From: Acidobacteriaceae bacterium
GTDB taxonomy: Bacteria > Acidobacteriota > Terriglobia > Bryobacterales > Bryobacteraceae
DNA: 64,000 bases
NCBI GenBank assembly: GCA_020247055.1
Contig: JADCJL010000108.1
Span: 54,631-118,630, forward strand
Direction: 5' to 3'
The translations under genes and the position numbers were made by a program. The notes beneath the pieces were generated by a model. That model did not search any database and was not told the origin of the DNA. It saw only the letters and a program-made list of their open reading frames with translations. This document shows positions 11,992 through 54,350 of the stretch, one piece after another. Numbering within the stretch: the first letter of the stretch is position 1; every line of letters begins with the position of its first letter.

Positions 11992-13065
11992 ATGCGAATT
12001 CTCCTTGCCGCCGCTCTGCTGCCGGCGCTACTCCCCGCCCAGGACGCCGCTATCCGCGCGGCCATGCAGAAGATGATCGATGCGCAGGAGGTGACGGGCG
12101 CGGTGACGGCGATTGCCACGCGGAGCGGCGTCACCCACCTGGCCGCGACGGGCGCCGTCAAGAAGAACTCGCTGTTCTGGATTGCCTCGATGACCAAGCC
12201 GGTGGTCGGCACGGCGATCCTGATGCTGCAGGAGGAGGGCAAGCTGTCGGTGGACGACCCGGTGGCGAAGCATATTCCGGCCTTCTCGAAGTATCCAAAC
12301 ATTACGCTGAAGCACCTGCTGACGCACTCCTCGGGGCTGGCCGAAGCCGCACCGGCCGAATGGGCGGCGGCGCGGAAGCTCGGCGACCTGATTCCGGCTT
12401 ACCTCGCCAAGCCGCTGCAGTTTGCGCCGGGCAGCCAGTGGAAGTACTGCCAGAGCGGCATCAATACCCTGGGCCATGTCGTCGAAGTGGCCTCCGGCGA
12501 GCCGCTCGAGAAGTTTCTGGCCGACCGGCTGTTCAAGCCGCTGGGCATGAAGAGCACGACGTTTTTCCCGACCGCCAAGCAGAAGGCCCGGCTGATTACG
12601 CCGGTCCGGCAGGACAAAGCCACCGGCAAGCTCGTACCGGCCGCGCTGCCGCCGGGCTTTGATCCCGAACCCTTCCCGGCGGCCAACGGCGGCCTGTTTT
12701 CGACCGCCACCGACTACCTGCGCTTTCAGCGCATGATCCTGAACGAGGGCACGCTCGACGGCAAGCGCTACCTGAAGCCGGAGTCCGTCCGGCAGATGAC
12801 CACCATCCAATCCGGCGACCTGAAGACGGGTTTCACGCCGGGCAACGGCTGGGGGCTGGCCTGGTGCGTGGTGCGCGAACCGCAGGGCGTCAGCAAACTA
12901 CTGAGCGCCGGCTCGCACGGCCACGGTGGCGCTTACGGGACACAGGCGTGGATTGACCCGAAGCGGGGCGTGGCGCTGCTGCTGATGGTGCAGCGGGCCG
13001 GCTTCGCCAACTCGGACGACTCGCCCGTGCGGCACGCCTTTCAGCAAGCAGCGCTTAGTCAGTAA
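11992..13065 (+). CDS. Beta-lactamase-family serine hydrolase (class C-like), secreted
   Basis: Signal peptide; SMTKPV (SxxK), YCQSG, HGGAYG motifs. Confidence 0.9.
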   Translation: MRILLAAALLPALLPAQDAAIRAAMQKMIDAQEVTGAVTAIATRSGVTHLAATGAVKKNSLFWIASMTKPVVGTAILMLQEEGKLSVDDPVAKHIPAFSKYPNITLKHLLTHSSGLAEAAPAEWAAARKLGDLIPAYLAKPLQFAPGSQWKYCQSGINTLGHVVEVASGEPLEKFLADRLFKPLGMKSTTFFPTAKQKARLITPVRQDKATGKLVPAALPPGFDPEPFPAANGGLFSTATDYLRFQRMILNEGTLDGKRYLKPESVRQMTTIQSGDLKTGFTPGNGWGLAWCVVREPQGVSKLLSAGSHGHGGAYGTQAWIDPKRGVALLLMVQRAGFANSDDSPVRHAFQQAALSQ

Positions 13066-14632
13066 GCGACATCATGTAATCGAGCATGGCGGTCATGTCG
13101 GCCGGGGAGAACTTGTAGGCCGGCATGATCGTTCCGGGCGATTTGCTTTCCGGATCGACGAAGTGCTCCTCCATCCACTTGCGGTCCCAGCGTTTGGCGA
13201 CGCCGTTGAGCGGGGGGCCGGACTTCATGCCGGCGCCGTTGATCTGGTGGCAGGCGCCGCAGTTGTTCTGCTGGTAGACCACGGCTCCACTGACGAGCGA
13301 TTGCGGCGTCCGGTGGAGGCTTTCGACGTTCTCATCGTCGAGTTTCGGCAGGAAGGTCGCGAGGCGGCGCCACTGGAGATCCTTGACGCCCTGGCCGGCC
13401 GGGCCGCTGGCCTGCTTGAAGTGCGCGACGAGCCAGTCGCGGTCGCGCAGGACGGCGATGTCGGCGAGGTTGGGTCCGGGGCGGGAGTCGCCCGGGGTGG
13501 AGGAGTGGCACTGCCAACAGGCAGCCTGCCGGAAGGTGCCGATGGCGGCCATCTCTTCGGCGGTAAAGCCCTTCCAGGAATCGCGGTGCGGGGTGGTGGA
13601 GAGGGCGGCGGCCGTCAGCGCGCCCCAGCCGATCAGCGACAGCACCAGGACGCCGATCGCGCCCGTGCGCTGGCGCAGGGCGATGGCCTTGCCGCGGTCG
13701 ATAAACGGGGTCAGGAACAGGAGCAGGACGGCGAGGCCCGGCAGCACCATGCTGCCGACGATTTCAAGCGGCCCCTCAAAGTACTTGAGGATCTGAAACA
13801 GGAACAGGAAGTACCATTCCGGGCGGGGGATGTAGGAGACGTCATTGGGGTCGGCGAGTTTCCCGAGCGGGACGCGGACGGCGACGGCGAGCACAAACAG
13901 CAGGGCGAACATGGCGAAGATGGCGACCGTATCCTTGAACACCTGCCGGGGGTAGAACTTGATGGGCGGCGCGGTTTCGACCGGGGCCGGGGCAACGCCG
14001 TGCCGGCGGACGAGATAGACGTGAAGGAACACGAGCAGGGCCGTGACCGCCGGAAGAATCAGCACGTGCGCGGCGTAGAAGCGGGCGAAGGTAACCGCGC
14101 CAATCTGCCCGTCTTCGCTGCCAAGCAGCGTCAGAATATAGGGACCCATCACCGGTGCCTTGGCCGCAATCTGCGTCGTCACGACGGTACCCCAGTAGGC
14201 GCGGTTATCCCAGGGCAGCAGATAGCCGGTGAGGCCGAAGCCAAGGGTTAACAGCAGGAGCACAACGCCGAGCATCCAGGTGGCTTCGCGGGGTTTCTTG
14301 TAGGCGCCCCACAGAAACACCTGCACCATGTGCAGAACAACGATGCAGATCATCATGCTCGCGCCCCAGTGGTGCAAGCCGCGCATCAGCCGTCCGGCGG
14401 TAAGTTCGGTGAGGATGTAGCGGAGGCTGCTGTGGGCTTCGGCGGTGGTAGGCGCGTAGTTGAGCGCCATCATGATGCCGGTGAACACCTGCACCAGAAA
14501 CATGAACAGCGCCATGCTGCCGAACACCTGATGCCAGCCGCTCGAAGCGGGAATGTCTTCGTTGAGAAAGTGAGCGATACCGGATTCCAGACCGGTCCGT
14601 TCCTCCACCCAGGCGCGTACTTTGTTGAGCAT
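13055..14632 (-). CDS. Cytochrome b/b6 fused to C-terminal c-type cytochrome region with two CXXCH motifs
   Basis: Cytochrome b HHWGASMMICIVVLHMVQVF, GYLLPWDNRAYWGTVV, subunit IV-like RPEWYFLFLFQILKYF; C-terminal CWQCH and CGACH. Confidence 0.92.
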   Translation of the reverse strand: MLNKVRAWVEERTGLESGIAHFLNEDIPASSGWHQVFGSMALFMFLVQVFTGIMMALNYAPTTAEAHSSLRYILTELTAGRLMRGLHHWGASMMICIVVLHMVQVFLWGAYKKPREATWMLGVVLLLLTLGFGLTGYLLPWDNRAYWGTVVTTQIAAKAPVMGPYILTLLGSEDGQIGAVTFARFYAAHVLILPAVTALLVFLHVYLVRRHGVAPAPVETAPPIKFYPRQVFKDTVAIFAMFALLFVLAVAVRVPLGKLADPNDVSYIPRPEWYFLFLFQILKYFEGPLEIVGSMVLPGLAVLLLFLTPFIDRGKAIALRQRTGAIGVLVLSLIGWGALTAAALSTTPHRDSWKGFTAEEMAAIGTFRQAACWQCHSSTPGDSRPGPNLADIAVLRDRDWLVAHFKQASGPAGQGVKDLQWRRLATFLPKLDDENVESLHRTPQSLVSGAVVYQQNNCGACHQINGAGMKSGPPLNGVAKRWDRKWMEEHFVDPESKSPGTIMPAYKFSPADMTAMLDYMMSLTD

Positions 14633-14635
14633 GCG

Positions 14636-15133
14636 TTATGCCTTGTCGGCCGGGCGGATCTCGCCCAGCAGGATGGTGGAGCCGTCTAACTTCACCGCAA
14701 ACCGGTCGAGCGCGCGCGGCGCGGGTCCGGATAGAACCTTACCGTCAGTGCCAAAACTTGAGGTGTGGCAGGGGCAGGCAAAGTTCTTCGCCGACCCGTC
14801 CCAACTCACGGCGCACCCCAGGTGCGTGCAAACCGGCGAGAAAGCGACCACCTGCTTATCGGCCGTCTTGACCATCCAAGCACTCGCCTTCTCTTTCACC
14901 GTCTTCCACCCATCGCGGCGTACCCGTTCAAAGATCACCTGCTCGGGCACGTTCTCTTCGAGCTTGGCCAAGTCACCGGCGGGAACCCAGTCGGCCGGGC
15001 GTTTCGCTTTCGAGCCACCGAGCAGATAACCGGCCGAAGGCAGCGCCAAGGCGGCCGTGATCAGGCCCATCAGGCCGTTAATGGAGGCGATCAGAAAGCC
15101 GCGGCGCGGCTCCTCTGGGGAAGACGACTTCAT
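14636..15133 (-). CDS. Rieske 2Fe-2S protein of the bc-type complex
   Basis: CTHLGCAVSWDGSAKNFACPCHTSSFG; N-terminal RRGFLIASINGLMGLITAAL anchor; adjacent to cytochrome b. Confidence 0.93.
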   Translation of the reverse strand: MKSSSPEEPRRGFLIASINGLMGLITAALALPSAGYLLGGSKAKRPADWVPAGDLAKLEENVPEQVIFERVRRDGWKTVKEKASAWMVKTADKQVVAFSPVCTHLGCAVSWDGSAKNFACPCHTSSFGTDGKVLSGPAPRALDRFAVKLDGSTILLGEIRPADKA

Positions 15134-25012: not shown

Positions 25013-25291
25013 TTAGCCTTTGACGAAAACGATGACGAGGGTGAACAGCGCCAGCGACTCGATGAAGACGAGGCCGAGCAGCCCGAGACCGCGGATGACG
25101 GTAGCGGCGCCGGGGTTGCGGGCGATGGCTTCAACGGCGCCGGCAATGGCTTTGCCCTGGCCGAGAGCGCACAGGCCCGAGGCGATGGCCATCGAGAAGG
25201 CGCTGGTGAGAACGATGCCGCCGTCAGCGGCCATCGAGGGGATCGCAAAGGCCATCAGAACGATGGCGAGGACAAACATTTTTCCGAACAT
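25013..25291 (-). CDS. atpE: ATP synthase F0 subunit c
   Basis: SAFSMAIASGLCALGQGKAIAGAVEAIARNPGAATVIRGLGLLGLVFIESLALFTLVIVF. Confidence 0.94.
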   Translation of the reverse strand: MFGKMFVLAIVLMAFAIPSMAADGGIVLTSAFSMAIASGLCALGQGKAIAGAVEAIARNPGAATVIRGLGLLGLVFIESLALFTLVIVFVKG

Positions 25292-25395
25292 AGGGTGTTG
25301 CTCCTTGGGTATGAATTGCGCTCAGGAGGTGGTTCCGTTCCGCCGTTGGGACGGGGAGGGCTCACACTGGCGCGGGGTTAATGCCAGATAAAAAC

Positions 25396-26127
25396 TTAAT
25401 GCTCGTCGCCCACCGCCGCGCCGATGTAGATCAGCGTCAGCAGCGCGAAAACGTAGGCCTGAATCACCGAGATGAACACGTGCAGCCCCATGAAGGCCAC
25501 CGGAACAATCAGATAGGTCAGGCTCAAAAAGACCAGCGTCACCTGCTCGCCGGCGAACATGTTGGCGAACAGACGAATCGTCAGCGAAACCGGGCGGGCC
25601 GCGTGGCTGACAATCTCAATGGGCAGCATCAGCGGGGTCAACCACCAGATGGGACCCGTGAACTGGCTGATGTAGTGGCCGCCGTGCTGGCGGATACCTT
25701 GAATGTTGTAGTAAAGGAACGCGAGCAGGGCGATGCCGGCCGGAACGTAGTGGTACATCGTCGGCGATTCAAACGTGGGAATCACGCCCAAAAGGTTCGA
25801 AAACAGCACGAACACGAAGAACGTTCCGGCGATCGGAATGTACTTCTTGTAGCCTTCGTGCACATTGTCGTGCGCCTGTTCGCCCAAAAACTCGTACATG
25901 GCTTCGAGGACATGCTGCAGTTTGCCGGGCGCCGTCATCGAGAAACCGCTTTTGGCAATCGTAAACAGAATCACGATCAACACCGCCACCAGGATCTCCA
26001 TGGTGATGTAGTTGGCCCAAGGCCGGTCGTGCGTGGCCAGGCCCACCGCGGACAGAACCGAGTTGCCTAAGCCAGCCAAGTGATCATTGAAGAGGGCGGT
26101 GAGCCAAAGCTCATGAGATTCGTGCAT
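25396..26127 (-). CDS. atpB: ATP synthase F0 subunit a
   Basis: VLEAMYEFLGEQ, SNLLGVIPTFESPT, PIEIVSHAARPVSLTIRLFANMFAGE. Confidence 0.96.
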   Translation of the reverse strand: MHESHELWLTALFNDHLAGLGNSVLSAVGLATHDRPWANYITMEILVAVLIVILFTIAKSGFSMTAPGKLQHVLEAMYEFLGEQAHDNVHEGYKKYIPIAGTFFVFVLFSNLLGVIPTFESPTMYHYVPAGIALLAFLYYNIQGIRQHGGHYISQFTGPIWWLTPLMLPIEIVSHAARPVSLTIRLFANMFAGEQVTLVFLSLTYLIVPVAFMGLHVFISVIQAYVFALLTLIYIGAAVGDEH

Positions 26128-26464
26128 AAATCAGTTGGTAGAGGGCCTCTCCCAGTGCCGCCGCGGCCGCCGTCAGCAGGCCAATCAGAAACGTAACCGG
26201 GGTAACCGCAAATACCTTCACTATAACATAGCCCACCCCGCCCAGAGCCGCCAGACGCAGCCCCAGCAGTCCTGCACGGGCCGGCGTAGGCCGCGAAAAA
26301 GCGCGTTCCAGCCAGCGGAAATTGGCCCAGGCCGCCGCCGCGCCGCTGGCCACCCCCAGCGCCGCCAACCCGCCCCAGCCCACGCCTGCCACTGCGGCAA
26401 ACACAACGCCCCAGCCGGCGATGCCCCACTCCATCCGCCGCACCATGCCTTCGTAGCTGTTCAC
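26111..26464 (-). CDS. AtpI-like F0 assembly protein
   Basis: Four hydrophobic segments, ANFRWLERAF motif, position upstream of atpB. Confidence 0.7.
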   Translation of the reverse strand: MNSYEGMVRRMEWGIAGWGVVFAAVAGVGWGGLAALGVASGAAAAWANFRWLERAFSRPTPARAGLLGLRLAALGGVGYVIVKVFAVTPVTFLIGLLTAAAAALGEALYQLIYARIS

Positions 26465-26661
26465 CCGGCGTCCTTATCCCGTTCGAACTCTTTGTTCAGC
26501 TTCCGGATCAGATCGCGCATCCCCGCAATCACCCCGACGATCAGCCAGAACACGCCCCAAAACTTCGTCCCGAACACATGGTCGAGCGCCGCGCCAATCC
26601 CGTAGCCCACCACCACACTCACCGGCAAAATCAGCGCCAGGTTCATGTAGTCCGAGATCAT
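26461..26661 (-). CDS. AtpZ-like small membrane protein
   Basis: MISDYMNLALILPVSVVVGYGIGAALDHVFGTKFWGVFWLIVGVIAGMRDLIRKLNKEFERDKDAG; next to atpI/atpB. Confidence 0.8.
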   Translation of the reverse strand: MISDYMNLALILPVSVVVGYGIGAALDHVFGTKFWGVFWLIVGVIAGMRDLIRKLNKEFERDKDAG

Positions 26662-26684
26662 CCGGCCGACGCTGCGTTCCCGCT

Positions 26685-27191
26685 TCACCGCGACGACACC
26701 GCCAGCGTATGCCGCGCATGGCAGTTCATGCAGGTCACCTTCGCCGTGCCCGCGCTCAAAGGAGGCTGTTTGCACGCCGCCGGGGTTGCGGCATGGCACC
26801 GCGCGCAGCCCGCCTGCGTCGCTGTCCACTCTTTCATATCGTGGTGCCCGTGGCAGGTACTGCAGTTGGCTGACTTCGCCGTCCGCTGCACAACGGCCAC
26901 GTGATGCTTGCTCTGCATGTACTGGTTCTTTTCGAGGTGATGGCAGTTGCCGCACATGCCCGCCACCTCGTCGGGCGCGGCCACGCGCTCGGGCGGCGCC
27001 TCGCCGTTGCTCTTGCGATGCTTCTCGCTCGGCCCGTGGCAGACGCCGCACTGCAGTCCCGCGCGCGAGTTATGCCGATGCTTGCTGAAGTCGGCGATCT
27101 GCTCGTTGTGACACGGCGCGCAGTCCTGTTGCGCTGCACTGCGAAACGAACCCAACGCCGGCAGCAGAAGCAGCCACAGCAGCCGGCTCAT
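26685..27191 (-). CDS. Exported hexaheme c-type cytochrome
   Basis: 168 aa, signal peptide MSRLLWLLLLPALGSFRSAAQ and six CXXCH motifs: CAPCH, CGVCH, CGNCH, CSTCH, CARCH, CMNCH. Confidence 0.9.
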   Translation of the reverse strand: MSRLLWLLLLPALGSFRSAAQQDCAPCHNEQIADFSKHRHNSRAGLQCGVCHGPSEKHRKSNGEAPPERVAAPDEVAGMCGNCHHLEKNQYMQSKHHVAVVQRTAKSANCSTCHGHHDMKEWTATQAGCARCHAATPAACKQPPLSAGTAKVTCMNCHARHTLAVSSR

Positions 27192-28330
27192 CCGAGCTTC
27201 CTCGTCACCAGGGTCCGCGTAATGTCGCTCGGCTTGGCCATGCCGGCCAGAGCCATCGCCAGCTTCAACTCCGCGTTCAACATCCACAGCACCCGTTCGA
27301 CGCCCGGCTGCCCGAAGGCGCCCAGACCCCACAGCGGCGCCCGGCCCACCAGCACCGCCTTGGCGCCCAGCGCCATCGCCTTCAAGATATCGGTGCCCCG
27401 GCGCAGCCCGCCGTCCATCAGCACCGGCACCTTGCCCCCCACGGCATCGACGCAATCGGGCAGCGCCTCGAGCGTGCCCATGACGCCGTCGAGCTGCCGC
27501 CCACCGTGGTTGGAGACCACAATGGCATCCGCCCCGTGCTTCACCGCCAGCGCGGCGTCCTCCGGATGGATGATCCCCTTCACAATCACCGGAATCTTCG
27601 CCCCTTCCTTCAACCAGGAGATCTGCTCCCAGGTCATCTGCGGCGTGTGCGGCTGCCACATCGCGGGCAGCGCCGGCGACTTCGGCGCCGGCTTCGGTTC
27701 GCCCTCTTTCGGCACGCCGGTCTGCATGTAGCCGTAGTCGAACCGGTTGCGATTGTTGCGGTCGCGGTTCGATTGATACTGGTTGTCGACGGTGAGCGTG
27801 ATGGCCCGGCCCCCGCCGTCTTCAATGCGCCGCGCGTAGCCCCGGGCCTGCGCCTTGGTCGCCGCACCGATCGTGTTGCTCCACCACAGCAGCGGCTCCC
27901 CTTTCTCAAGAATCTTCTGCACCCCGGTCGCCGAGCAGATCAGCGTCTTTGAGGCCAGCGCCGCCGCCGCGACTTTCTCATCCGCGCTCTCGATCACCAG
28001 GTTCTTCCCCCCGGTCGGCGCAATCAGAATCGGGCTCGCCAGCTTCATGCCGAGCAGGTCCACTGCGAGCGAGACGTTTGAAACATCGGTCATCACCCGC
28101 GGCCGCAGCGCAAACTTGCCGTACGCCTCCCGGTTAGCCCGCAGCGTGTACTCATCCTCGACGCCGCCAGCAATAAAGTCATAAGCCAGCTTGTGCATCT
28201 TCCGTTTGGCTACTTCCTCAAACTCATGCACATTCACCGGTCCCATCAACTCATCGGGCACCTCGGCCGGCAACAGCGGCGATCCTGCCGCCAAGCCCAC
28301 CAGGTTCCGCACCAATTCGCGCCGATTCAT
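27188..28330 (-). CDS. FMN-dependent alpha-hydroxyacid dehydrogenase/oxidase with putative Tat signal
   Basis: MNRRELVRNLVGLAAGSPLLPA; ASPILIAPTGG, VIVKGIIHPEDA, VVSNHGGRQLDG, VLMDGGLRRGTDILKAMALGA. Confidence 0.92.
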   Translation of the reverse strand: MNRRELVRNLVGLAAGSPLLPAEVPDELMGPVNVHEFEEVAKRKMHKLAYDFIAGGVEDEYTLRANREAYGKFALRPRVMTDVSNVSLAVDLLGMKLASPILIAPTGGKNLVIESADEKVAAAALASKTLICSATGVQKILEKGEPLLWWSNTIGAATKAQARGYARRIEDGGGRAITLTVDNQYQSNRDRNNRNRFDYGYMQTGVPKEGEPKPAPKSPALPAMWQPHTPQMTWEQISWLKEGAKIPVIVKGIIHPEDAALAVKHGADAIVVSNHGGRQLDGVMGTLEALPDCVDAVGGKVPVLMDGGLRRGTDILKAMALGAKAVLVGRAPLWGLGAFGQPGVERVLWMLNAELKLAMALAGMAKPSDITRTLVTRKLG

Positions 28331-29139
28331 CGTTTCGCCTCCAAGATCCCCGCCGCCTGCTCTCCGGCCTCTTTCACCAGAATGCCCATCTTCGGATGCG
28401 ACGGTTCCATATCGGCCTTTAATCCTATCTCGTCAAGCGCCTCCGATGTCGTGGGCCCGATCGAGCCGATCACCATCCGCCGCAGCGCGGGCAGCACATC
28501 GACCCCCTCCTCGGCCGCCACCTGCAGCAGATGCGTCACCTGAATCGAGGTCGTCAGCAGCACCACGTCGAACGCTCCGGCCGCAATCCCCCGCGCCGCC
28601 GCCCGCAGTGGCGCCGTGTCCTCCGGCAGCGCCCATTGGTAGACCGGCACCGGCGTCACCTCCGCCCCGGTCTCGCGCAGCGCGGCCAGCAAAGCCAGAT
28701 TCGACTTGCCATACTCCTGCACGGCGATGCGCCGTTCGGTGCGCCCGCGCATCACCTGCATCAGCTCCCGCCAGGTGTTCGGCTCCGGGGCCATGGCCGC
28801 CGCGGGCACGTTCCACTCGCGCAGCACGGCCATCGGCTTTGGCCCCCGCGCCACCACGGGACGCTTCCGCAACTCCGCGGCCAAGGCTCCTTCCGGCCAG
28901 CGCGTCGCCAGCACCTTATCGAGCGCCCGCGTCCCTACGCCCGTCAGCAGAATCACCAGATCGAACTCGCCGGCCCGCAGTCGGTCAAAGAACGCAAAAG
29001 CCTCGGGGTTATCTTCAATCGGCATCTCCCGCATCGACGGCGCCACCGTCGCCACGCCCCCGTTCTTCTCCACCAGCACCGCCATCTCGGTCGCCCGGCG
29101 CGACTCAAGCGCCAGCACCCGCAATCCGTCAAAACCCAT
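28327..29139 (-). CDS. hemD: Uroporphyrinogen-III synthase
   Basis: GLRVLALESRRATEMAVLVEKNGG, FDLVILLTGVGTRAL, FDVVLLTTSIQVTHLL, IGSIGPTTSEALDEIGLKAD. Confidence 0.88.
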   Translation of the reverse strand: MGFDGLRVLALESRRATEMAVLVEKNGGVATVAPSMREMPIEDNPEAFAFFDRLRAGEFDLVILLTGVGTRALDKVLATRWPEGALAAELRKRPVVARGPKPMAVLREWNVPAAAMAPEPNTWRELMQVMRGRTERRIAVQEYGKSNLALLAALRETGAEVTPVPVYQWALPEDTAPLRAAARGIAAGAFDVVLLTTSIQVTHLLQVAAEEGVDVLPALRRMVIGSIGPTTSEALDEIGLKADMEPSHPKMGILVKEAGEQAAGILEAKR

Positions 29140-30047: not shown

Positions 30048-30719
30048 ATGCCGGAACTGTCCCTTCAACTCCTCATCGACATCTTCGCTATCGTCCTGAT
30101 TGACCTGCTCCTGGCCGGCGACAACGCCGTCATTATCGCCCTGGCCGTCAAGTCGCTGCCGGACCGCGAAAAGAAGCTCGGCATCCTGATCGGCGCGGGC
30201 GTCGCCGTCGTGCTCCGTATCGGCCTCACGTTCTTCGCCGCCCAACTCCTGCAGGTCTCGTGGCTGAAGCTCGTCGGCGGCCTCGCGATTTTCTGGATCG
30301 CCATCAAGCTCCTCACCGACGCCGCCGACCACGACGCCGGCGGCCCGCAAGCGGCGACCCTCATGTCCGCCATCTGGTACATCCTCGTCGCCGACATCAC
30401 CATGTCCGTCGACAACATCCTCGCTGTGGCCGGCACCTCCAAGGGGAGCCTGCCGCTGCTGATCTTCGGCCTCGGCCTGTCGATCCCTTTCGTCGTCTTC
30501 ACGTCCAAGATCCTGTCCACCATCATGGACAAGTACCCGGTGATCGTCTGGATCGGCGCCGCCATCCTCGGTCGCGTCGGCGCCGAGATGATCCTCACCG
30601 ACCCGGTCGTCCGTTCTTCTTTCCATCCGCCGTTCGCCGTCGATGTTGCGATTCAGATCGCCGGCGCGCTGCTCGTCGTCGGCGCCGGCTGGTTCTTGTC
30701 TAAGCGAAAAGCGGCTTGA
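30048..30719 (+). CDS. TerC-family integral membrane protein
   Basis: LLIDIFAIVLIDLLLAGDNAVIIALAVKSLP, ADITMSVDNILAVAGTSKG. Confidence 0.92.
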   Translation: MPELSLQLLIDIFAIVLIDLLLAGDNAVIIALAVKSLPDREKKLGILIGAGVAVVLRIGLTFFAAQLLQVSWLKLVGGLAIFWIAIKLLTDAADHDAGGPQAATLMSAIWYILVADITMSVDNILAVAGTSKGSLPLLIFGLGLSIPFVVFTSKILSTIMDKYPVIVWIGAAILGRVGAEMILTDPVVRSSFHPPFAVDVAIQIAGALLVVGAGWFLSKRKAA

Positions 30720-32070
30720 TTACGTGTCCGTGCACGTCGGTCAACCGGCGCTGCAGGCCGTTGTGGTACCAACTCAGCCGCGTGTGGTCGAGCCCCATCA
30801 GGTGGAGAATCGTCGCGTGGAAATCGTAGAGCGTCACCGGGTTCTCGGCCGCCTTGTAGCCCAGCTCATCCGTTGACCCGTAGCTGAAGCCCTTCTTCAA
30901 GCCCGGCCCCACCATCCACGATGTGAAGCCTTCGGGGTTGTGGTCGCGCCCGCCCTCGCCGAGGCCCTCCGAGATCGGCAATCGACCGAACTCGGTCGTG
31001 AAGACGACGAGCGTATCGTCGAGCATGCCGCGCTGCTTCAGGTCCTTGAGCAGCGCCGCCGTGGGCTGATCAAGGATGCGCGCGTTCTTGCCGTGGTTGG
31101 TAATCAGGTCTTCGTGCGCGTCCCAGTTCACCCGGGGCGCCCCGAAGTGGCCGCCATTGTACATCTGGATCACCCGCACCCCGCGCTCCATCAGCCGCCG
31201 GGCCAGCAGGCAGTTGTAGCCGTAGTCGCGCATCTCCGGGTCGTCCAGGCCGTAGGCCTTGCGCGTGGCTTCCGTCTCGCCGCTGATGTCGGTCACCTCC
31301 GGTGCCGCCAACTGCATCTTCGCCGCCAGCTCATAAGCGCGGATGCGCGACACGAGCGCGTCCTCGCCCGGGTTCGCCTCCGCATGGGCTTCGTTCAACT
31401 GGCTCAGCAGATCGTAGCTGGCGGCCTGCGCCTTGGCGTTCACCGCCGTCGGCGGGCGCAGATTGGCAATCGGCTGCTCCTGCGTACCGAAGGCCACGCC
31501 CTGGTGCACGGCCGGCAAAAACCCGTTGCCCCAGTTGGCCACCCCGCACGGCGGCAGCCCGCGCCGGTCCGGCAGCACGACAAACGACGGCAGGTTCTCG
31601 TTCTCGCTGCCGAGGCCGTAGCTGATCCACGACCCGATCGACGGGAACCCCTGGAAGATGAACCCCGTCGACATCTGGAACAGCGCCGGGCCGTGGGCGT
31701 TCGAACGGGTGACCATCGAATGAACGAACGTCGTGTCGTCGACGCAGGTGGCCAGATGGGGCAGCAGCTCGCTCACCCACTTGCCGCTCTGCCCGTGCCG
31801 GGCGAACTGCCACGGCGACTGCATCACCGTTCCGCGCTTGCCGAAAAACGGGGTGATCGTGTTGGCGCCCTGCGTCTCCTTGCCGTGGTGTTTGACGAGC
31901 TCCGGCTTATAGTCGTAAGTATCGACGGCGCTCAGCCCACCGGGCAGGAAGATCATGATCAGCCGCTTGGCCTTGGCCGGAAAGTGCGTTCCCTTGCCCT
32001 GCAGCAGCTGCGCCAGCGCCAGTCCCGCGGCGCCGCCGCCCGCGTTCCAGAGTAGTTCTCGTCTCGTCAT
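30700..32070 (-). CDS. DUF1501 (sulfatase-like) protein, Tat signal
   Basis: MTRRELLWNAGGGAAGLALAQLL, RLIMIFLPGGLSAVDTYDYKPEL, VVFTTEFGRLP, GRDHNPEGFTSWMVG. Confidence 0.93.
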   Translation of the reverse strand: MTRRELLWNAGGGAAGLALAQLLQGKGTHFPAKAKRLIMIFLPGGLSAVDTYDYKPELVKHHGKETQGANTITPFFGKRGTVMQSPWQFARHGQSGKWVSELLPHLATCVDDTTFVHSMVTRSNAHGPALFQMSTGFIFQGFPSIGSWISYGLGSENENLPSFVVLPDRRGLPPCGVANWGNGFLPAVHQGVAFGTQEQPIANLRPPTAVNAKAQAASYDLLSQLNEAHAEANPGEDALVSRIRAYELAAKMQLAAPEVTDISGETEATRKAYGLDDPEMRDYGYNCLLARRLMERGVRVIQMYNGGHFGAPRVNWDAHEDLITNHGKNARILDQPTAALLKDLKQRGMLDDTLVVFTTEFGRLPISEGLGEGGRDHNPEGFTSWMVGPGLKKGFSYGSTDELGYKAAENPVTLYDFHATILHLMGLDHTRLSWYHNGLQRRLTDVHGHVIKPLFA

Positions 32071-34568
32071 GGGATGTAGAGAAATTCGTTCGTATTCAGG
32101 AGCACGCGACAAAACAAAGCCAACGAATGCTGGGCGGCGTACCGGTCGCCCAGGGCCAGCTCTTTTTCCGTGGCCGGCCGGCCCAGCACCAGTTGATAGG
32201 CCCGACCCACGCTCCCGGCGCGCGCCGCCAGCTTCTGCGCCTGCTCCCAGACAAAATCGTCGTTGAGCAGCGTCAGTGCCTGCAGCGCCGTGTTCGAGGA
32301 GCTCCGCTGCGGCGTCGCCACCGACGGGTCCGGGCAGTCGAAGTTGTCCATCATCAGCCGGTCGCCGCCCCGCACGTTGAAGCGGTAGACGCTGCGCCGC
32401 CACGTCTCCGGCCCCGGGTTGTCGACCGCCTTGAAGATATACGAGCCGCCCGACTGCATCCGGTGCAGCCGGAAGCTCGGGCCGCCCATCGTCAAATCGA
32501 GCGTGCCCGCCGCGGCCAGCATCGAGTCCCGCAGCGTTTCCGCGTCCATCCGCTTGAGCGGCATGTGCCACAGCAGGCGGTTGCCCGCGTCGATGGCGAA
32601 GGCCTTGGCGTTATGCGCCGTCGACTGCTGATAGGCCTCGGTAAGCAGAATCTGCCGGTGCAGCCACTTCAGGCTCCAGCCGTTTTCGACAAACGAAGCC
32701 GCGAGCCAATCGAGCAGTTCGGGGTGCGAGGGGCGGTCGCCCATCAGGCCGAAGTCGCTCGGGGTGTTCACCATGCCGTTACCGAAATGGAAGTACCAGA
32801 CGCGGTTGACAATCACGCGCGCCGTTAGGGGATTGGCCGGATCGGTCATCCAATCGGCCAGCGCCAGGCGGCGGTCTTTGTCCGTGGCGAAGGCGGCCGG
32901 GAGCACCGACAGCGCCCCGGGGTCCACCGCCGCACCCTTGCGCGTGATGCTGCCGCGCTCAAGCACGTAGGCCTGCTCGGGCTTGTGCGGCATAGCGGCG
33001 TAGAGCTTTTCGGGCGCGGGGATTTTGGCGATTTCCGCCTTCAGCCGGTCGCGCTCCCGCTTCAGTTCCGGCACGAGGCCGGGGTCCGGCGCCGCGGGCA
33101 GACTGACTTCCACGCTGCGAATATGGTCGAGCGAACTGGCTACCTCCACCCATTGGTCGCCCCGCCGCGCCTCGACGCGGTAGACGGTAATGCCGCCCGG
33201 GCGGCGCGCCAGCTTCTCATCGCACGCCCAGGCCATTTCGCCCGGCGCGGCCACCTCGCCAAGGGGCAGGAAGACCGGATCATCCGGCGTCGCCTTGCGG
33301 TCGGCCTGCCAGTTTTCGATGCGCCGTCCGCCCACGGTGAGCCAGTCGAGCCGGGCCAGCGGCCCATCGTGGCCGGTGATGACCAGCCGCAGTTCCCCCG
33401 CCTCGCGGATCCGATTGACGTTGAAGACCGGGTTGAGCGGCATGCGCCGGGCCTCGCCGCGGCGTGCGGCATGGAACTCGCGGATGGCCTGGCGCAGGTA
33501 GGCCGCCCGCACGGGGTCTTCGGCGTCGGCGATCTTCTGTTCGACAGTCTTCAACTGCGCCCGCAGCGGCGTGGTGGCCCGCTCGTAGGCGGCCTTGGCT
33601 TCCGGCGTCACCACCTCCCGGGTGCCGAAGCCCACGGTTTGAAAAACAGCGGTGAGTTTGTAATAGTCGCGCGTCGGGATGGGGTCGAACTTGTGGTCGT
33701 GGCAGCGGGCGCAGTTGGCCGTCATGGCCTGGAAGGTGTGCATGGTCGTGGTGACCATATCGTCGAGCTCGTCCATTCGCGCGGTGGCCTTCATGGCGGC
33801 GTCTTTGTTGAGTTCGGCCGAGACGGAGTCCCACGGGCCGGCGGTAAGGAAGCCCGTGGCGCGGACGATTTTCGGATCCTGCGGGGCGAGCAGGTCGCCG
33901 GCGATCTGTTCGCGCAGGAACTGCGGATAGGGCTTGTCGGCGTTCAGGGACTCAATCACGTAGTCGCGGTACGGCCAGGCCAGCGCCCGCTCGAAGTTGT
34001 GTTCGCCGCCGTCGGTTTCGCCGAAGCGGACGACGTCGAGCCAGTGCCGTCCCCACCGCTCGCCGTAGCGCGGCGAAGCCAGGTACGCCTCCACGGCTTT
34101 TTCGTAAGGCAGACTCTCGCCCGGCGGCAGGCCGGTCAGGTCAAACGCCAGCCGGCGCAGCAGCGTCCGGTCGTCGGCGCGTGGCGCAAAGCCCAAACCC
34201 TTGGCCTGCAGCTTGGTGAGCAGAAAGGCGTCGATGGGCGTCTTGGCGCCCGTGCCCGCCGGTACCGGCGGCTTCCCCACCGGCCGGAACGCCCAAAAGG
34301 GTTTCCGCGCCGGCGCGGCCAAAGGCTTGGCGCCGGCCTCGACCCACGCCTTCACGGCCGCCACCTCGTCGGGCGAAAGGCGCGGCCCGCCGAGCGGCAT
34401 TTCGCCGCTTTCAACGCGAGCCATCACCCGCGGCGAGGCCGCTTTCGTCAGGTCGAAACCTGCAGAAACCTTTTCCCCACCATGACACTTGAGACACCGG
34501 TCCCGCAGCACGGAGGCGGAGTCCGCCCCCCACACCGTACCGGCCAACAGCAGCACGAGCGCTCGCAT
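32067..34568 (-). CDS. DUF1549/DUF1553 protein with N-terminal cytochrome c-type CXXCH
   Basis: MRALVLLLAGTVWGADSASVLRDRCLKCHGGEKVSAGFDL; LRRLAFDLTGLPP; WGRHWLDVVRF; CARCHDHKFDPI; NRVWYFHFGNGMV. Confidence 0.93.
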   Translation of the reverse strand: MRALVLLLAGTVWGADSASVLRDRCLKCHGGEKVSAGFDLTKAASPRVMARVESGEMPLGGPRLSPDEVAAVKAWVEAGAKPLAAPARKPFWAFRPVGKPPVPAGTGAKTPIDAFLLTKLQAKGLGFAPRADDRTLLRRLAFDLTGLPPGESLPYEKAVEAYLASPRYGERWGRHWLDVVRFGETDGGEHNFERALAWPYRDYVIESLNADKPYPQFLREQIAGDLLAPQDPKIVRATGFLTAGPWDSVSAELNKDAAMKATARMDELDDMVTTTMHTFQAMTANCARCHDHKFDPIPTRDYYKLTAVFQTVGFGTREVVTPEAKAAYERATTPLRAQLKTVEQKIADAEDPVRAAYLRQAIREFHAARRGEARRMPLNPVFNVNRIREAGELRLVITGHDGPLARLDWLTVGGRRIENWQADRKATPDDPVFLPLGEVAAPGEMAWACDEKLARRPGGITVYRVEARRGDQWVEVASSLDHIRSVEVSLPAAPDPGLVPELKRERDRLKAEIAKIPAPEKLYAAMPHKPEQAYVLERGSITRKGAAVDPGALSVLPAAFATDKDRRLALADWMTDPANPLTARVIVNRVWYFHFGNGMVNTPSDFGLMGDRPSHPELLDWLAASFVENGWSLKWLHRQILLTEAYQQSTAHNAKAFAIDAGNRLLWHMPLKRMDAETLRDSMLAAAGTLDLTMGGPSFRLHRMQSGGSYIFKAVDNPGPETWRRSVYRFNVRGGDRLMMDNFDCPDPSVATPQRSSSNTALQALTLLNDDFVWEQAQKLAARAGSVGRAYQLVLGRPATEKELALGDRYAAQHSLALFCRVLLNTNEFLYIP

Positions 34569-44519: not shown

Positions 44520-47500
44520 ATGCGGAGTATCGTTTTCATCACGTTCGCCGCGGCTCTCGCCCTGGCCGAAACACCAGTAGACTTCCAGCGCCAGGTGCGC
44601 CCAATTCTTTCCGATAACTGCTTCCACTGTCACGGCCCGGACCGCACCACCCGCATGGCCAACCTCCGCCTCGATACCCGCGAAGGCGCCTTCGCCCCGC
44701 GCAAACAGGGCGCTGCCATCGTCCCCGGCCAACCCGCCGCCAGCCTCATCCTCCAACGCATCGCCCACCCGGACCCCGCGCGCCTCATGCCCCCGCCGCA
44801 GTCCCACAAAAAAATCACCGCCCAGCAGCAGCAGATCCTCACCCGCTGGATCGCCCAGGGCGCCCCCTGGCAGGAGCACTGGGCCTTCCAGCAGCCCGCC
44901 AAGCCTCCGCTGCCCACCGTCCGCGACACCCGCTGGCCCCGCAGCCCCCTCGACCAGCTCCTGCTCGCCCGCATCGAAGCCGCCGGTCTCACCCCGGCTC
45001 CCGAAGCCGACCGCCGCACCCTCGCCCGCCGCCTCGCCCTCGATCTCACCGGTCTCCCGCCCCAACCCGCCGACGTCGAAGCCTTCCTCGCCGACCCCGC
45101 CCCCGACGCCTACGAAAAGCTCGTCGACCGCTACCTCGCCTCCCCCCAGTACGGCGAACACCGCGCCCGCTTCTGGCTCGACGCCGCCCGCTACGCCGAT
45201 ACCCACGGCCTCCACATCGATAACTACCGCGAAATGTGGCCCTATCGCGACTGGGTCATCCAGGCCTTCAACAAAAACCTCCGCTTCGATCAGTTCGTCC
45301 TCTGGCAGGTGGCCGGCGACCTGCTCCCCAACCGCACCATGGAGCAGCAGATCGCCAGCGGCTTCCAGCGCTGCAACGTCACCACCAACGAAGGCGGCGT
45401 CATCCCCGACGAAGTGCAGGCCATGTACGATAAGGACCGCGCGGACACCACCGGCGCCGTCTTCCTCGGCATGACCGTCGGCTGCGCCAGCTGCCACGAC
45501 CACAAGTTCGATCCCATTTCGCAGAAAGACTTCTACGCGCTCACGGCCTTCTACCGCAACACCCTCCAGCGCCCGCTCGACGGCAACATCTACGACACCC
45601 CGCCCATCCTCATCGTCCCCCGCCCCGCGGACGAAGCCCGCTGGCAGAGCCTCCCCGCCGACGAAGCGGCCGCCCGTACCGCCATCGAAGCCGCCCGCGC
45701 TGCCGCCGCCCCGGGCTTCCAAGCCTGGTTCACCAAAGGCCGGTATAAAAAGTTGAAGCTCCCCGTCGCCGGTGAACTCTTCCGCCTCCCCGCCGGCGAG
45801 CTGACCTTCGACGCCAAACAAACCCGCGAACTCCCCAACCAGCCCCTGTTCGCCCGCAACCGGCCCTTCTCTATCGCCGTCCGCTTCTTCCTGCCCAAGT
45901 CCACGGAAAACCTCACTGTCCTGAGCCAGCTCGAGCGCTACCCCGAAGACAAGGCCCGCGGCATCGCCGTTGAAGTCAACGACCGCCGCCCCTTCCTCCG
46001 CCTCGTCGGGGACGACAACAAAGCCATCCAGGTCCGCGGCTCGAACGACCGCCGCCTCGCTGTCGACTCCTGGCACCACGTCACCCTCACCTACGACGGC
46101 AGCGGCCGCCGCGACAGCCTCGCCCTCTTCGTCAACGGCGAAGCCGTGCCCTACGAAGGCGCCAACGAATCGTTCTTCGACCTGATGGGCGAGATTGAAA
46201 CCAAGGCTCCCCTGCGCCTGGGTGGCGATGGCAACAAGCGCTTCTTCGCCGGCGGCAAAATCAGCGATCTGCGCCTCTACCCGCGCGCCCTCGGCGTCGA
46301 CGAAGCCCGCACCATCGCCCTCTGGCCCGAACTCACCCGCGGCGACCGCGCCGCCGCCGAGCACTACTACCTCGTCAACGTCGACCCCGCCGCCCGCCCG
46401 GCCTATCAACACCTCGCCGCGCTCACCGCCGAACGCCTCGCCATCCGCCGCCGCGCCGCCATCACCCACGTCATGCAGGAGAAAACCAACTCCCTGCCCA
46501 TGTCCAACATCCTCTACCGCGGCCAGTACGACCAGCCGCGCGACAAAGTCGAACCCGCCGTCCCCGGCGTCCTCCCGCCCCTGCCCGCCGGCGCCCCCAA
46601 GAACCGCCTCGGCCTCGCCCAATGGCTCGTCGACGCCAACAACCCCCTCACCGCCCGCGTCACCGTCAACCGCTTCTGGCAGGAGATCTTCGGCACCGGT
46701 ATCGTCAAAACCGCCGACGACTTCGGCAGCCAGGGCGAAGCCCCCACCCATCCCGAACTCCTCGACTGGCTCGCCATCGAGTTCCGCGAATCGGGCTGGG
46801 ACGTCAAGGCGCTCCTGCGCCTGATGGTTACCAGCGCCGCCTACCGCCAGGCCGCCATCGCCACGCCCGACAAACTCCAGGCCGACCCCGACAACCGCCT
46901 CCTGGCCCGCGGCCCCCGCTTCCGCATGGACGGCGAAATGATCCGCGACTACGCCCTCGCCGCCAGCGGCCTGCTCACCGCCAAAATCGGCGGCCCCAGC
47001 GTCAAGCCCTACCAGCCGGATAATGTCTGGGAAACCGTCGCCATGGACGGCAGCAACACCCGCTTCTACAAACGCGACTCCGGCGAAAACCTCTACCGCC
47101 GCAGCCTCTACACGTTCTGGAAGCGCAGCGCCCCGCCCGCCAACATGGAGATCTTCAACGCCCCCACGCGCGAGACCTGCACCGTCCGCCGCGAACGGAC
47201 CAATACGCCGCTACAGGCCCTCGTCACCATGAACGATCCCCAGTTCGTCGAAGCCGCCCGCGCGCTCGCCCAGCGCGCCCTGCAGGCCGAAAAGAACAAC
47301 CCGGCCGGCCAGCTCCAACTCATCGCCCGCACCGTGCTCGCCCGTCCCCTCGACGAGCGCGAACAGACCATCACCCAAAGCGCCTACCGCGACTATCTGC
47401 GCCACTACGACTCCTCCCCCGCCGACGCCCGCAAACTGCTCGCCGTCGGCGAATCGAAGGCCGACGCGTCCCTGCCCCCGGCCGAGTTCGCGGCGCTGAC

Positions 47501-47549
47501 CATGGTCACCAACCAACTTCTCAATCTCGACGAGGTCGTCACCAAATGA
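44520..47549 (+). CDS. DUF1549/DUF1553 protein with N-terminal cytochrome c motif and internal LamG/concanavalin-like domain
   Basis: CFHCHGPDRTTRMANLRLDTREGAF; LALDLTGLPPQP; CASCHDHKFDPI; FSIAVRFFLPKS...WHHVTLTYDGSG...FVNGEAV; TVNRFWQEIFGTGIV. Confidence 0.93.
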   Translation: MRSIVFITFAAALALAETPVDFQRQVRPILSDNCFHCHGPDRTTRMANLRLDTREGAFAPRKQGAAIVPGQPAASLILQRIAHPDPARLMPPPQSHKKITAQQQQILTRWIAQGAPWQEHWAFQQPAKPPLPTVRDTRWPRSPLDQLLLARIEAAGLTPAPEADRRTLARRLALDLTGLPPQPADVEAFLADPAPDAYEKLVDRYLASPQYGEHRARFWLDAARYADTHGLHIDNYREMWPYRDWVIQAFNKNLRFDQFVLWQVAGDLLPNRTMEQQIASGFQRCNVTTNEGGVIPDEVQAMYDKDRADTTGAVFLGMTVGCASCHDHKFDPISQKDFYALTAFYRNTLQRPLDGNIYDTPPILIVPRPADEARWQSLPADEAAARTAIEAARAAAAPGFQAWFTKGRYKKLKLPVAGELFRLPAGELTFDAKQTRELPNQPLFARNRPFSIAVRFFLPKSTENLTVLSQLERYPEDKARGIAVEVNDRRPFLRLVGDDNKAIQVRGSNDRRLAVDSWHHVTLTYDGSGRRDSLALFVNGEAVPYEGANESFFDLMGEIETKAPLRLGGDGNKRFFAGGKISDLRLYPRALGVDEARTIALWPELTRGDRAAAEHYYLVNVDPAARPAYQHLAALTAERLAIRRRAAITHVMQEKTNSLPMSNILYRGQYDQPRDKVEPAVPGVLPPLPAGAPKNRLGLAQWLVDANNPLTARVTVNRFWQEIFGTGIVKTADDFGSQGEAPTHPELLDWLAIEFRESGWDVKALLRLMVTSAAYRQAAIATPDKLQADPDNRLLARGPRFRMDGEMIRDYALAASGLLTAKIGGPSVKPYQPDNVWETVAMDGSNTRFYKRDSGENLYRRSLYTFWKRSAPPANMEIFNAPTRETCTVRRERTNTPLQALVTMNDPQFVEAARALAQRALQAEKNNPAGQLQLIARTVLARPLDEREQTITQSAYRDYLRHYDSSPADARKLLAVGESKADASLPPAEFAALTMVTNQLLNLDEVVTK

Positions 47550-49021
47550 GCCTGCTCCCGTTTCTCAAATCGAACCCAGACCCGACGGAAGAGTCCGTTG
47601 TCAATGAAGCCCGCCGCCAACTGCTGCGCGGCGGCCTCGGCGCCGTGGCTCTCTCGCAGCTGCTCTCGGCCGCGCCCAAGGCCGAAGGCGGCGTCCCCGG
47701 CCTGCCCGGGCTGCCCCACTTCGCCCCCAAAGCCAAGCGCGTCATCTACCTCCACATGGTCGGCGCCCCGCCCCAGCACGACCTGTTCGACTGGAAGCCG
47801 AAGATGAAGGATTGGTTCGACAAGGACCTCCCGGAATCCATCCGCTCCGGCCAGCGGCTCACCACCATGACCGCCGGCCAGGCCCGCTTCCCCATCGCGC
47901 CCACCGTCTTCAAATTCGGCAAGCACGGCAAAAGCGGCATGGAGCTATCCGAACTCCTGCCCTGGACCGCCAAAATGGCCGACGACATCACCCTCATCCG
48001 GTCCATGAACACCGAGGCGATCAACCACGAACCGGCCATCACCTTCATCCAGACCGGATTCATGATCGCCGGCAAACCCTGCATCGGCTCCTGGGCCTCC
48101 TACGGCCTCGGCAGCATGAATCAGGACCTGCCCGCCTTCGTCGTCCTTAACGCCAAACACACCCACCCCAAAGCCAACGTCCAGGCCATCTCGGCCCGCC
48201 TGTGGAGCGCCGGCTTCCTCTCCGGCCAGTACTCCGGCGTCTCGCTCCGCAGCGGCGGCGACCCGGTGCTCTATATCAATAATCCCGACGGCGTCCCCAC
48301 CCCGATGCGCCGCCGCATGCTCGACGCCCTCGGCCAGATGAACCAGCTCACCGCCGAAAAGCTCAGTGACCCCGAAACCCGCACCCGCATCGCGCAGTAC
48401 GAAATGGCGTTCCGCATGCAAGCCTCCGTCCCGGAACTCACCGACATCAAAAGCGAACCCGAATCCACCTTCAAGCTCTACGGCGAAGCCGCCCGCGAAG
48501 GCGGCACCTTCGCCAACTCCGCCCTCATGGCCCGCCGCCTCGTTGAACGCGGCGTCCGCTTCGTCCAGCTCTACATGCGCGGCTGGGACGTCCACGGCCT
48601 GCTGCCCGAAGTGCTCCCGTCCCAATGCAAGGATGTCGACCAGGCCTGCTACGCGCTCGTGCAGGATCTCAAACAGCGCGGCATGCTCGACGACACGCTC
48701 GTCATCTTCGGCGGCGAGTTCGGCCGCACCATCTACTCACAAGGCAAGCTCACCCCCACCGACTACGGCCGCGATCACCACCCGCGCTGCTTCAGCCTCT
48801 GGATGGCCGGCGGCGGCACCAAAGGCGGCTACACCCACGGCGAAACCGACGAGTTCAGCTACAACATCGTCAAAGATCCCGTCCACGTCCGCGACTTCCA
48901 GGCCACCCTGCTCCACCTGCTCGGCATCGACCACGAACGGTTCACCTACAAGTTCCAGGGCCTCGACCAGCGGCTCACGGGCGTTGAAAAAGCCCACGTG
49001 GTCAAGGCCCTGCTCGCCTAG
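47546..49021 (+). CDS. DUF1501 (sulfatase-like) protein
   Basis: RRQLLRGGLGAVALSQLLSAAP, RVIYLHMVGAPPQHDLFDWKP, GGEFGRTIYSQG, GRDHHPRCFSLWMAGGG. Confidence 0.93.
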   Translation: MSLLPFLKSNPDPTEESVVNEARRQLLRGGLGAVALSQLLSAAPKAEGGVPGLPGLPHFAPKAKRVIYLHMVGAPPQHDLFDWKPKMKDWFDKDLPESIRSGQRLTTMTAGQARFPIAPTVFKFGKHGKSGMELSELLPWTAKMADDITLIRSMNTEAINHEPAITFIQTGFMIAGKPCIGSWASYGLGSMNQDLPAFVVLNAKHTHPKANVQAISARLWSAGFLSGQYSGVSLRSGGDPVLYINNPDGVPTPMRRRMLDALGQMNQLTAEKLSDPETRTRIAQYEMAFRMQASVPELTDIKSEPESTFKLYGEAAREGGTFANSALMARRLVERGVRFVQLYMRGWDVHGLLPEVLPSQCKDVDQACYALVQDLKQRGMLDDTLVIFGGEFGRTIYSQGKLTPTDYGRDHHPRCFSLWMAGGGTKGGYTHGETDEFSYNIVKDPVHVRDFQATLLHLLGIDHERFTYKFQGLDQRLTGVEKAHVVKALLA

Positions 49022-52935: not shown

Positions 52936-52937
52936 TC

Positions 52938-54350
52938 ATGTCTGAACACTTCCGCTGGACCCGTAACCGCCGCGAATTTCTCACCGATGCCTTCTGCGGC
53001 TTCGGCTCCCTGGCCCTCGCGCAGATGACGGCCCAGGCCGCCGCGAACAACCCGCTCGCCCCCAAGCCGCCCCACATGCCGGACAAGGCCAAAGCCAAGT
53101 CGGTCATCTTCCTGTTCCAGGCCGGCGGCCCCAGCCACATCGAAACCTTCGATCCCAAGCCGCTACTCAACCAGCTCAGCGGCCAGACGCGCCCGGCCGA
53201 GTTCGGCGAAGCCAAGTATCAGTTCGTCTCGAAAACCGCTAAGCTGCTCGGCACCAAACGCACCTTCCGGCGCTACGGGAAAAGCGGCATCGAAGTCTCC
53301 GACCTGTTCCCGCACCAGGCGAGCATCGTCGACGAGTTAGCCGTCATCCGCTCCTGCCACGGCGACATGGTGGTGCACTCGGCCGCCCAGTATCAGCTGA
53401 TGACCGGCCGCATTCTGCCCGGCTTCCCGAACATGGGCAGCTGGGTCGCCTACGGCCTCGGCACCGAAAGCGAATCCCTGCCGGCCTACTGCGTGCTCCC
53501 CGACCCCAAGGGTGCCCTCGAAGCGGGCCAGCCCATGTATACGCAAGGCTTCCTGCCGGCCGTCTACCAGCCCACCATGCTCCGCCCCGGCGCTCGGCCC
53601 GTGCTCAATCTCGAGCTGCCCGAAGGCATCACCACACCGCAGCGCCGTCGTACCCTCGACCTGCTTCGCGGCCTCAACGAAGCCGAAATGAAGCCCGGCG
53701 ACGCCGAACTCGAAGCCCGCATCGCCGCCTACGATCTTGCCTTCAAGATGCAGAGCGAAGCCCCCGAGGCCTTCGATATCGCCAAGGAATCCGACGCCGT
53801 GCGCGAGCTCTACGGCATTGGCAAAAAAGAAACCGACGACTACGGCCGCCGCTGCCTCCTCGCCCGCCGTCTTGTCGAACGGGGCGTGCGCTTTGTCACG
53901 GTGGTCGCCGGCGGCGGCCCCGGCAACATGCAATGGGACGCCCATTCGAACATCGAAGAGAACCATATCCGCATTGCCGGCCATACCGACCAACCGGTGG
54001 CCGCGTTGATTAAAGACCTGAAGCAGCGCGGCTTGCTCGATTCGACGCTCGTCGTCTGGGGCGGCGAGTTCGGCCGGTCGCCCGAGTCCGAGGGCACCGA
54101 AGGCCGCGACCATCACAACCTCGGCTTTACGATGTGGATGGCCGGCGGCGGCATCAAGGGCGGCCAGGTTGTCGGCGCCACCGATGCGATCGGCCTCCGC
54201 GCCGTCGAAAATCCCTGCCATTTCCGCGATATCCACACAACGATCCTGCACCAGCTCGGCCTGCAGCAGGATGCGCTCAGCTATCTCCACCTCGGCCGCC
54301 GCGAGCGGCTGACGGAGGTGCACGGCCAGGTGATCAGCCAGATCGTATAA
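52938..54350 (+). CDS. DUF1501 (sulfatase-like) protein
   Basis: RNRREFLTDAFCGFGSLALAQM, SVIFLFQAGGPSHIETFDPKP, WGGEFGRSPESEG, GRDHHNLGFTMWMAGGG. Confidence 0.94.
   Translation: MSEHFRWTRNRREFLTDAFCGFGSLALAQMTAQAAANNPLAPKPPHMPDKAKAKSVIFLFQAGGPSHIETFDPKPLLNQLSGQTRPAEFGEAKYQFVSKTAKLLGTKRTFRRYGKSGIEVSDLFPHQASIVDELAVIRSCHGDMVVHSAAQYQLMTGRILPGFPNMGSWVAYGLGTESESLPAYCVLPDPKGALEAGQPMYTQGFLPAVYQPTMLRPGARPVLNLELPEGITTPQRRRTLDLLRGLNEAEMKPGDAELEARIAAYDLAFKMQSEAPEAFDIAKESDAVRELYGIGKKETDDYGRRCLLARRLVERGVRFVTVVAGGGPGNMQWDAHSNIEENHIRIAGHTDQPVAALIKDLKQRGLLDSTLVVWGGEFGRSPESEGTEGRDHHNLGFTMWMAGGGIKGGQVVGATDAIGLRAVENPCHFRDIHTTILHQLGLQQDALSYLHLGRRERLTEVHGQVISQIV

Follow-up and report, generated by a model that had tools for sequence, protein, structure and literature searches.

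Enzymes of the lactate/glycolate oxidase family pass their electrons to O2, to quinone or, in yeast, by way of a fused heme b to cytochrome c. The yeast enzyme, flavocytochrome b2 (L-lactate:cytochrome c oxidoreductase, EC 1.1.2.3), is a functional parallel, in the same family, to the locus described here (PMC6472588, PMC8491902). In a different family, the amine oxidoreductase superfamily, the combination of a Tat signal with an adjacent Sec cytochrome c predicted dehydrogenases that use cytochrome c, which stopped flow then showed; fused forms are found there too (PMC12224317). LldD-type L-lactate dehydrogenases have been annotated in related peat Acidobacteria MAGs (PMC6018796).

The locus lies in a stretch of acidobacterial DNA of 64,000 nucleotides, which as a whole we call the window. 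A first-pass annotation of the letters had proposed that an exported FMN alpha-hydroxyacid dehydrogenase and a small hexaheme cytochrome c form an undescribed periplasmic module, with the cytochrome as electron acceptor. In the open-access papers searched, no FMN hydroxyacid dehydrogenase is described that is both exported and paired with a multiheme protein, which is weak evidence as subscription papers mostly lie outside this set. Within that scope the hexaheme-linked FMN module is apparently previously undescribed, as had been supposed.

The gene pair and its conservation

The coordinates first given for the two genes were exact, and the 380-aa and 168-aa translations were recovered there (Table 1). 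The overlap reported between them is also present, as an ATGA shared by the FMN gene stop and the cytochrome gene ATG. The FMN protein carries both the RR signal MNRRELVRNLVGLAAG and the active-site motif SNHGGRQLDG, and the small cytochrome has its six CXXCH motifs (CAPCH, CGVCH, CGNCH, CSTCH, CARCH, CMNCH).

Table 1. Positions of the gene pair and of the neighbouring genes in the window.
Feature	Position	Strand	Remarks
FMN_dh-family dehydrogenase	27188..28330	minus	380 aa; Tat-like N-terminus MNRRELVRNLVGLAAGSPLLPA; Pfam FMN_dh
Hexaheme cytochrome c, Sec-type leader (predicted export)	26685..27191	minus	168 aa; six CXXCH and six further invariant His
ATGA stop/start overlap of FMN gene and cytochrome gene	27188..27191	minus	couples both genes; 4 nt
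Tat-like N-terminal signal region of FMN protein	28265..28330	minus	about residues 1-22; R3, R4, S17, P18 and L19 invariant
HemD, uroporphyrinogen-III synthase	28327..29139	minus	upstream of FMN gene; context, outside core pair
ATP synthase gene 1 (ATPase_gene1)	26461..26688	minus	GTGA overlap with cytochrome stop; context
AtpI, AtpB, AtpE (F0 subunits)	25013..26464	minus	remainder of gene chain; context

The pair sits inside a longer chain (25013-29139) in which hemD, the FMN gene, the cytochrome gene, ATP synthase gene 1 and atpI each overlap by 4 nt, followed by atpB and atpE. Outside the pair itself the overlaps fall at 28327-28330 (hemD and the FMN gene), 26685-26688 (cytochrome gene and ATP synthase gene 1, GTGA) and 26461-26464 (ATP synthase gene 1 and atpI). 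In this genome the pair thereby heads the F0 ATP-synthase genes, a placement shared by roughly half of the relatives that carry it.

Elsewhere in the window, at 13055-15133, a cytochrome-b-like protein with two CXXCH adjoins a Rieske-like protein, both named by eye from their sequences; the two probably belong to a bc-type complex whose c hemes are fused. In each of three gene pairs (30700-34568, 44520-49021 and 50926-54350) a large protein bearing one or two CXXCH precedes an RR-leader protein that is DUF1501-like by eye; these pairs resemble exported cytochrome/sulfatase-like pairs of the planctomycete style.

Co-conservation was examined in 150 Bryobacteraceae genomes, sorted by coordinates for adjacency of both genes. 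Enzyme orthologues form a distinct score class above 450 bits, with the next matches at 342 bits or less, and occur in 38 genomes; 33 genomes have a cytochrome orthologue, for which the threshold was 68 bits. Both genes are present and adjacent in 31 genomes, the enzyme is alone in seven, the cytochrome is alone in two (in one case where the contig ends), and 110 genomes have neither. The association is strong (Fisher p = 5e-23 over the 150 genomes, kinship ignored). The cytochrome thus adjoins the enzyme gene in 31 of the 38 family orthologues, and the pair is co-conserved in the relatives, as the module proposed for the window would lead one to expect. The closest named relatives are Bryobacteraceae, Bryobacterales and Ca. 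Sulfopaludibacter MAGs.

Relatedness among these genomes is a concern for the Fisher value, and three observations answer it in part. The pair occurs in relocated loci, at least 15 named pairs having neither hemD nor atp nearby; the -4 overlap is kept in 23 of the 24 measurable pairs, even though identity to the window proteins falls as low as 63% for the enzyme and 38% for the cytochrome; and an Acidobacteria MAG that is less closely related (L116, 57%) also has the pair. The 15 named pairs in other contexts rule out that the two genes stay together only through passive synteny with hemD and atp. In one relative (L062:11596-12141) the pair and the atp genes are followed, after a few kb, by a gene for a seven-CXXCH protein, a position at which the window has none.

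The cytochrome is not an obligatory partner of the enzyme, since seven orthologues lack it and it occurs in one genome or more where the enzyme is missing. Lone enzymes adjoin hemD or atp (L093, L095, L109, L111), a position that would fit an original order hemD-FMN-cyt-atp out of which the cytochrome was lost. In one genome of the family (G143) the cytochrome is interrupted, and a MAG with the label Limisphaerales (L115, 58%) carries the enzyme but no cytochrome.

Active site, export signals and hemes

The enzyme matches FMN_dh (PF01070) at 337 bits (E=1.2e-100) over profile positions 1-349 of 350, and a Pfam search found no fused cytochrome b5-like heme domain in it. It scores 192-218 bits against the NCBIfam models for LldD, L-lactate oxidase and MftD, below their cut-offs of 376-646. 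We mapped the active site by aligning 37 orthologues to spinach glycolate oxidase (GOX, 1GOX). D182, R189, K251, H275 and R278, the equivalents of GOX Asp157, Arg164, Lys230, His254 and Arg257, are kept in all 37. Tyr24 of GOX is replaced by Phe throughout (F52 in the window enzyme), and Tyr129 by T in 27, G in 5, V in 3 and S in 1 of the 37 (T153 in the window enzyme). Gln127 has mostly become Ser or Thr, the loop bearing Trp108 is deleted, and the hexaheme-linked enzymes share an invariant block of their own, SNRDRNNRNRFDY...W.PH. At the position of GOX Ala79 all 37 have Gly (Gly107), which we take to be a trait of mandelate dehydrogenase and not of the oxidases, linked to poor use of O2.

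Seven active-site residues are described as shared by the whole FMN_dh family, and at least one of them was missing in 8 of 10 inactive FMN_dh proteins (PMC8491902). Judged by its residues, the window enzyme probably has its oxidation chemistry intact, with a substrate pocket that differs from those of the known lactate and glycolate enzymes. The first identification as an alpha-hydroxyacid dehydrogenase therefore holds in part: the catalytic His, Asp, Lys and Arg are kept, and because the two substrate-binding tyrosines are replaced an alpha-hydroxyacid is only a putative substrate. The AlphaFold model of the enzyme has an acceptable core (pLDDT 72.5), with low values in the leader and the active-site loops.

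In every aligned orthologue a short, basic, RR-bearing segment comes first, followed by a mildly hydrophobic stretch that ends in an invariant SPL, and then by the start of the domain. R3 and R4 are invariant in the 34 aligned enzyme orthologues and the remainder of the leader varies. The conserved twin arginine, the moderate hydrophobic region and the short-residue region before the domain are features of the Tat type; the hydrophobic stretch is short, with 12-residue Kyte-Doolittle maxima of about 1.0-2.0. A search of the enzyme with Tat signal HMMs gave no match, and the same models also missed the Tat-like DUF1501 proteins of the window that served as controls, so we regard this result as uninformative. 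The cytochromes have Sec-like hydrophobic leaders. The sequences of both leaders suggest export, and no result showed the RR N-terminus, which is conserved in all aligned orthologues, to be something other than an export signal. TatC and homologues of cytochrome c assembly proteins are present in the genome, as are two homologues of COX1, the heme-copper oxidase subunit I.

The cytochrome scores above the Pfam cut-offs for Cytochrome_C7 and Cytochrom_c3_2. All six CXXCH are invariant across 24 orthologues, as are six additional His (H38, H40, H58, H96, H117 and H161). Because these six candidate distal ligands match the six hemes in number, all six hemes are predicted to be six-coordinate, bis-His and of the electron-transfer type. 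Chance occurrence of CXXCH can be dismissed, as the six motifs and their spacing are conserved in 24-30 orthologues. Comparison by sequence with solved structures gave no convincing relative of the cytochrome, and its AlphaFold model is poor (pLDDT 54).

Related acidobacterial enzymes

In a tree of 87 sequences, the hexaheme-linked enzymes (group A) and two further groups, B and C, form a single clade that excludes GOX and LOX (support 98/89). Each group is monophyletic (support 100/99-100), and A and B are sisters. Group B enzymes are 43-47% identical to the window enzyme and have RR leaders, and a four-CXXCH protein lies close by in 12 of 16 loci, often with intervening sequence. Group B was seen in two families of the phylum (L119-L123, L125, L128, L130, L135, L136, L083, L084).

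Group C occurs in at least 11 families of the phylum and includes the second FMN_dh gene of the genome studied here (G000:C123); its loci are L131:3333-4496 (G000:C123:20332-21495), L132-L134, L138-L150, L152-L157 and L166. Most members have RR leaders. The group is defined by one CXXCH within the FMN domain, at the position of loop 4, so that all 24 of its members in the tree have the motif; so do nearly all members of the branch, L151 at its base having none. A Met 13 residues after the CXXCH is near-invariant, and all canonical active-site residues are kept, both tyrosines included. These features suggest a heme c covalently bound beside the flavin, which would make the group C enzymes candidate flavocytochromes c, with the heme embedded in the FMN domain, and perhaps more novel than the hexaheme pair. 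That three related groups are tied to c-type heme by different routes strengthens the reading of the group A pair as an enzyme with its electron acceptor.

We tentatively suggest, at somewhat short of an even chance, that the three groups constitute an undescribed acidobacterial superclade of exported FMN dehydrogenases wired in three ways: by a hexaheme partner, by a tetraheme partner, and by a CXXCH heme with a Met ligand, placed within the FMN domain beside the active site. In this proposal the pocket of the hexaheme branch would have changed to a substrate class new to the family.

A probable periplasmic dehydrogenase with its own electron acceptor

In soil and peat Acidobacteria the enzyme, with its export signal, nearly always has a six-heme protein encoded beside it. 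This points to a respiratory module located beyond the inner membrane, and we consider it probable that the two genes encode such a periplasmic module, an FMN dehydrogenase with its own hexaheme acceptor. The FMN dehydrogenase would fold with FMN in the cytoplasm and then be exported by Tat, as its conserved RR signal implies. In the periplasm it would use its family's His-Asp chemistry to oxidise an organic compound, which is probably a 2-hydroxyacid or an alcohol related to one. Reduced FMN would then pass electrons singly to the co-translated hexaheme cytochrome, which would have been exported by Sec and, with bis-His ligation at all six hemes, could act as a wire or a small capacitor. From there electrons would move to the periplasmic cytochrome pool and on to a terminal oxidase or another acceptor.

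This two-gene module is favoured by the co-occurrence of the genes, the -4 overlap, the relocated loci, the invariant RR, the His ligands, Gly107 and the presence of TatC, COX1 and assembly genes. The sister clades tied to c-type hemes favour it further, as do, by analogy, signposts of the NicA2/CycN type (PMC12224317). Against it stand the lone orthologues, the missing Tat HMM match, the loss of Tyr24 and Tyr129 and the poor model of the cytochrome.

Three alternatives were considered. The substrate might not be an alpha-hydroxyacid at all: the pocket may have been remodelled for an amine-, aldehyde- or peptide-like compound, as in MftD, with the enzyme still coupled to the hexaheme protein. 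The loss of both tyrosines, the change of Gln127, the deleted Trp108 loop, the invariant block of this clade and scores far under the LldD, LOX and MftD cut-offs all argue for it; retention of the Arg257, His254, Asp157, Lys230 and Arg164 equivalents, the carboxylate and base machinery, argues the other way, and on the whole we think such a substrate possible but lean against it. In another alternative the protein would be cytoplasmic, its N-terminus would be no export signal and the gene order would reflect only co-regulation with heme and ATP synthesis. We judge this very improbable, despite the short hydrophobic stretch and the lack of a Tat HMM match, as RR is invariant in the aligned orthologues and recurs in the sister clades, within a leader that is otherwise variable, the internal CXXCH of group C requires export for heme acquisition, and the pair persists without hemD and atp.

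It is also unlikely, though less so, that the enzyme is a periplasmic oxidase that reduces O2 to H2O2, beside a cytochrome that is unrelated or detoxifying. Most characterised soluble FMN_dh proteins do use O2 (PMC8491902), the Tat flavoenzymes without a neighbouring cytochrome in PMC12224317 were O2-users, and seven orthologues have no adjoining cytochrome. However, the overlapping arrangement persists across relocated loci, Gly107 replaces the oxidase Ala in all orthologues, and peroxidase chemistry would be unlikely in a cytochrome whose six hemes all appear six-coordinate.

If the periplasmic module is real, small molecules could be oxidised by soil Acidobacteria without entering the cytoplasm, and the electrons could supply periplasmic or extracellular respiration. 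LldD, the name that automatic annotation gives to such genes in peat and soil metagenomes, is probably incorrect. Substrate-dependent heme reduction offers a simple biochemical test, in a phylum with few characterised enzymes.

Several known systems share parts of this arrangement. The cytochrome resembles the Cytochrome_C7, c3, NrfB and DmsE/MtrA types, CXXCH/bis-His multiheme periplasmic carriers, and its sequence has the multiple CXXCH, candidate bis-His ligands and export signal of the C7/c3 type. Set against other small multiheme cytochromes, it has six hemes in 168 aa. It is far under the cut-offs of the NrfH and NrfB models, and against TIGR03508, for DmsE/MtrA-type decahemes, it scores 33.2 bits (cut-off 192.2), with six hemes and not ten. 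LldD and (S)-mandelate dehydrogenase share the enzyme's fold and its catalytic His, Asp, Lys and Arg, and are not linked to O2; they differ in facing the cytoplasm, reducing quinone and having no cytochrome partner, and the window enzyme scores well below the cut-offs of the LldD models. Flavocytochrome b2, like the pair, has a non-cytoplasmic FMN_dh domain, in the intermembrane space, with electrons passing via heme to cytochrome c. It uses one fused b5-type heme b, whereas here a Tat-like enzyme and a six-heme c-type protein are separate, and two conserved substrate tyrosines are lost in the window enzyme. In layout, the nearest match is NicA2/Pnao with CycN, together with related Tat-exported amine dehydrogenases: a Tat flavoenzyme with an adjacent Sec cytochrome c (PMC12224317). 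The conserved operonic Sec cytochrome beside a Tat-like flavoenzyme is found here too (31/38, with the -4 overlap in 23/24). NicA2/Pnao have the FAD amine oxidoreductase (FAO) fold and a monoheme or diheme cytochrome, in contrast to the FMN_dh TIM barrel and hexaheme protein of the window; there the two proteins were shown to be functional partners, and here a similar partnership is predicted.
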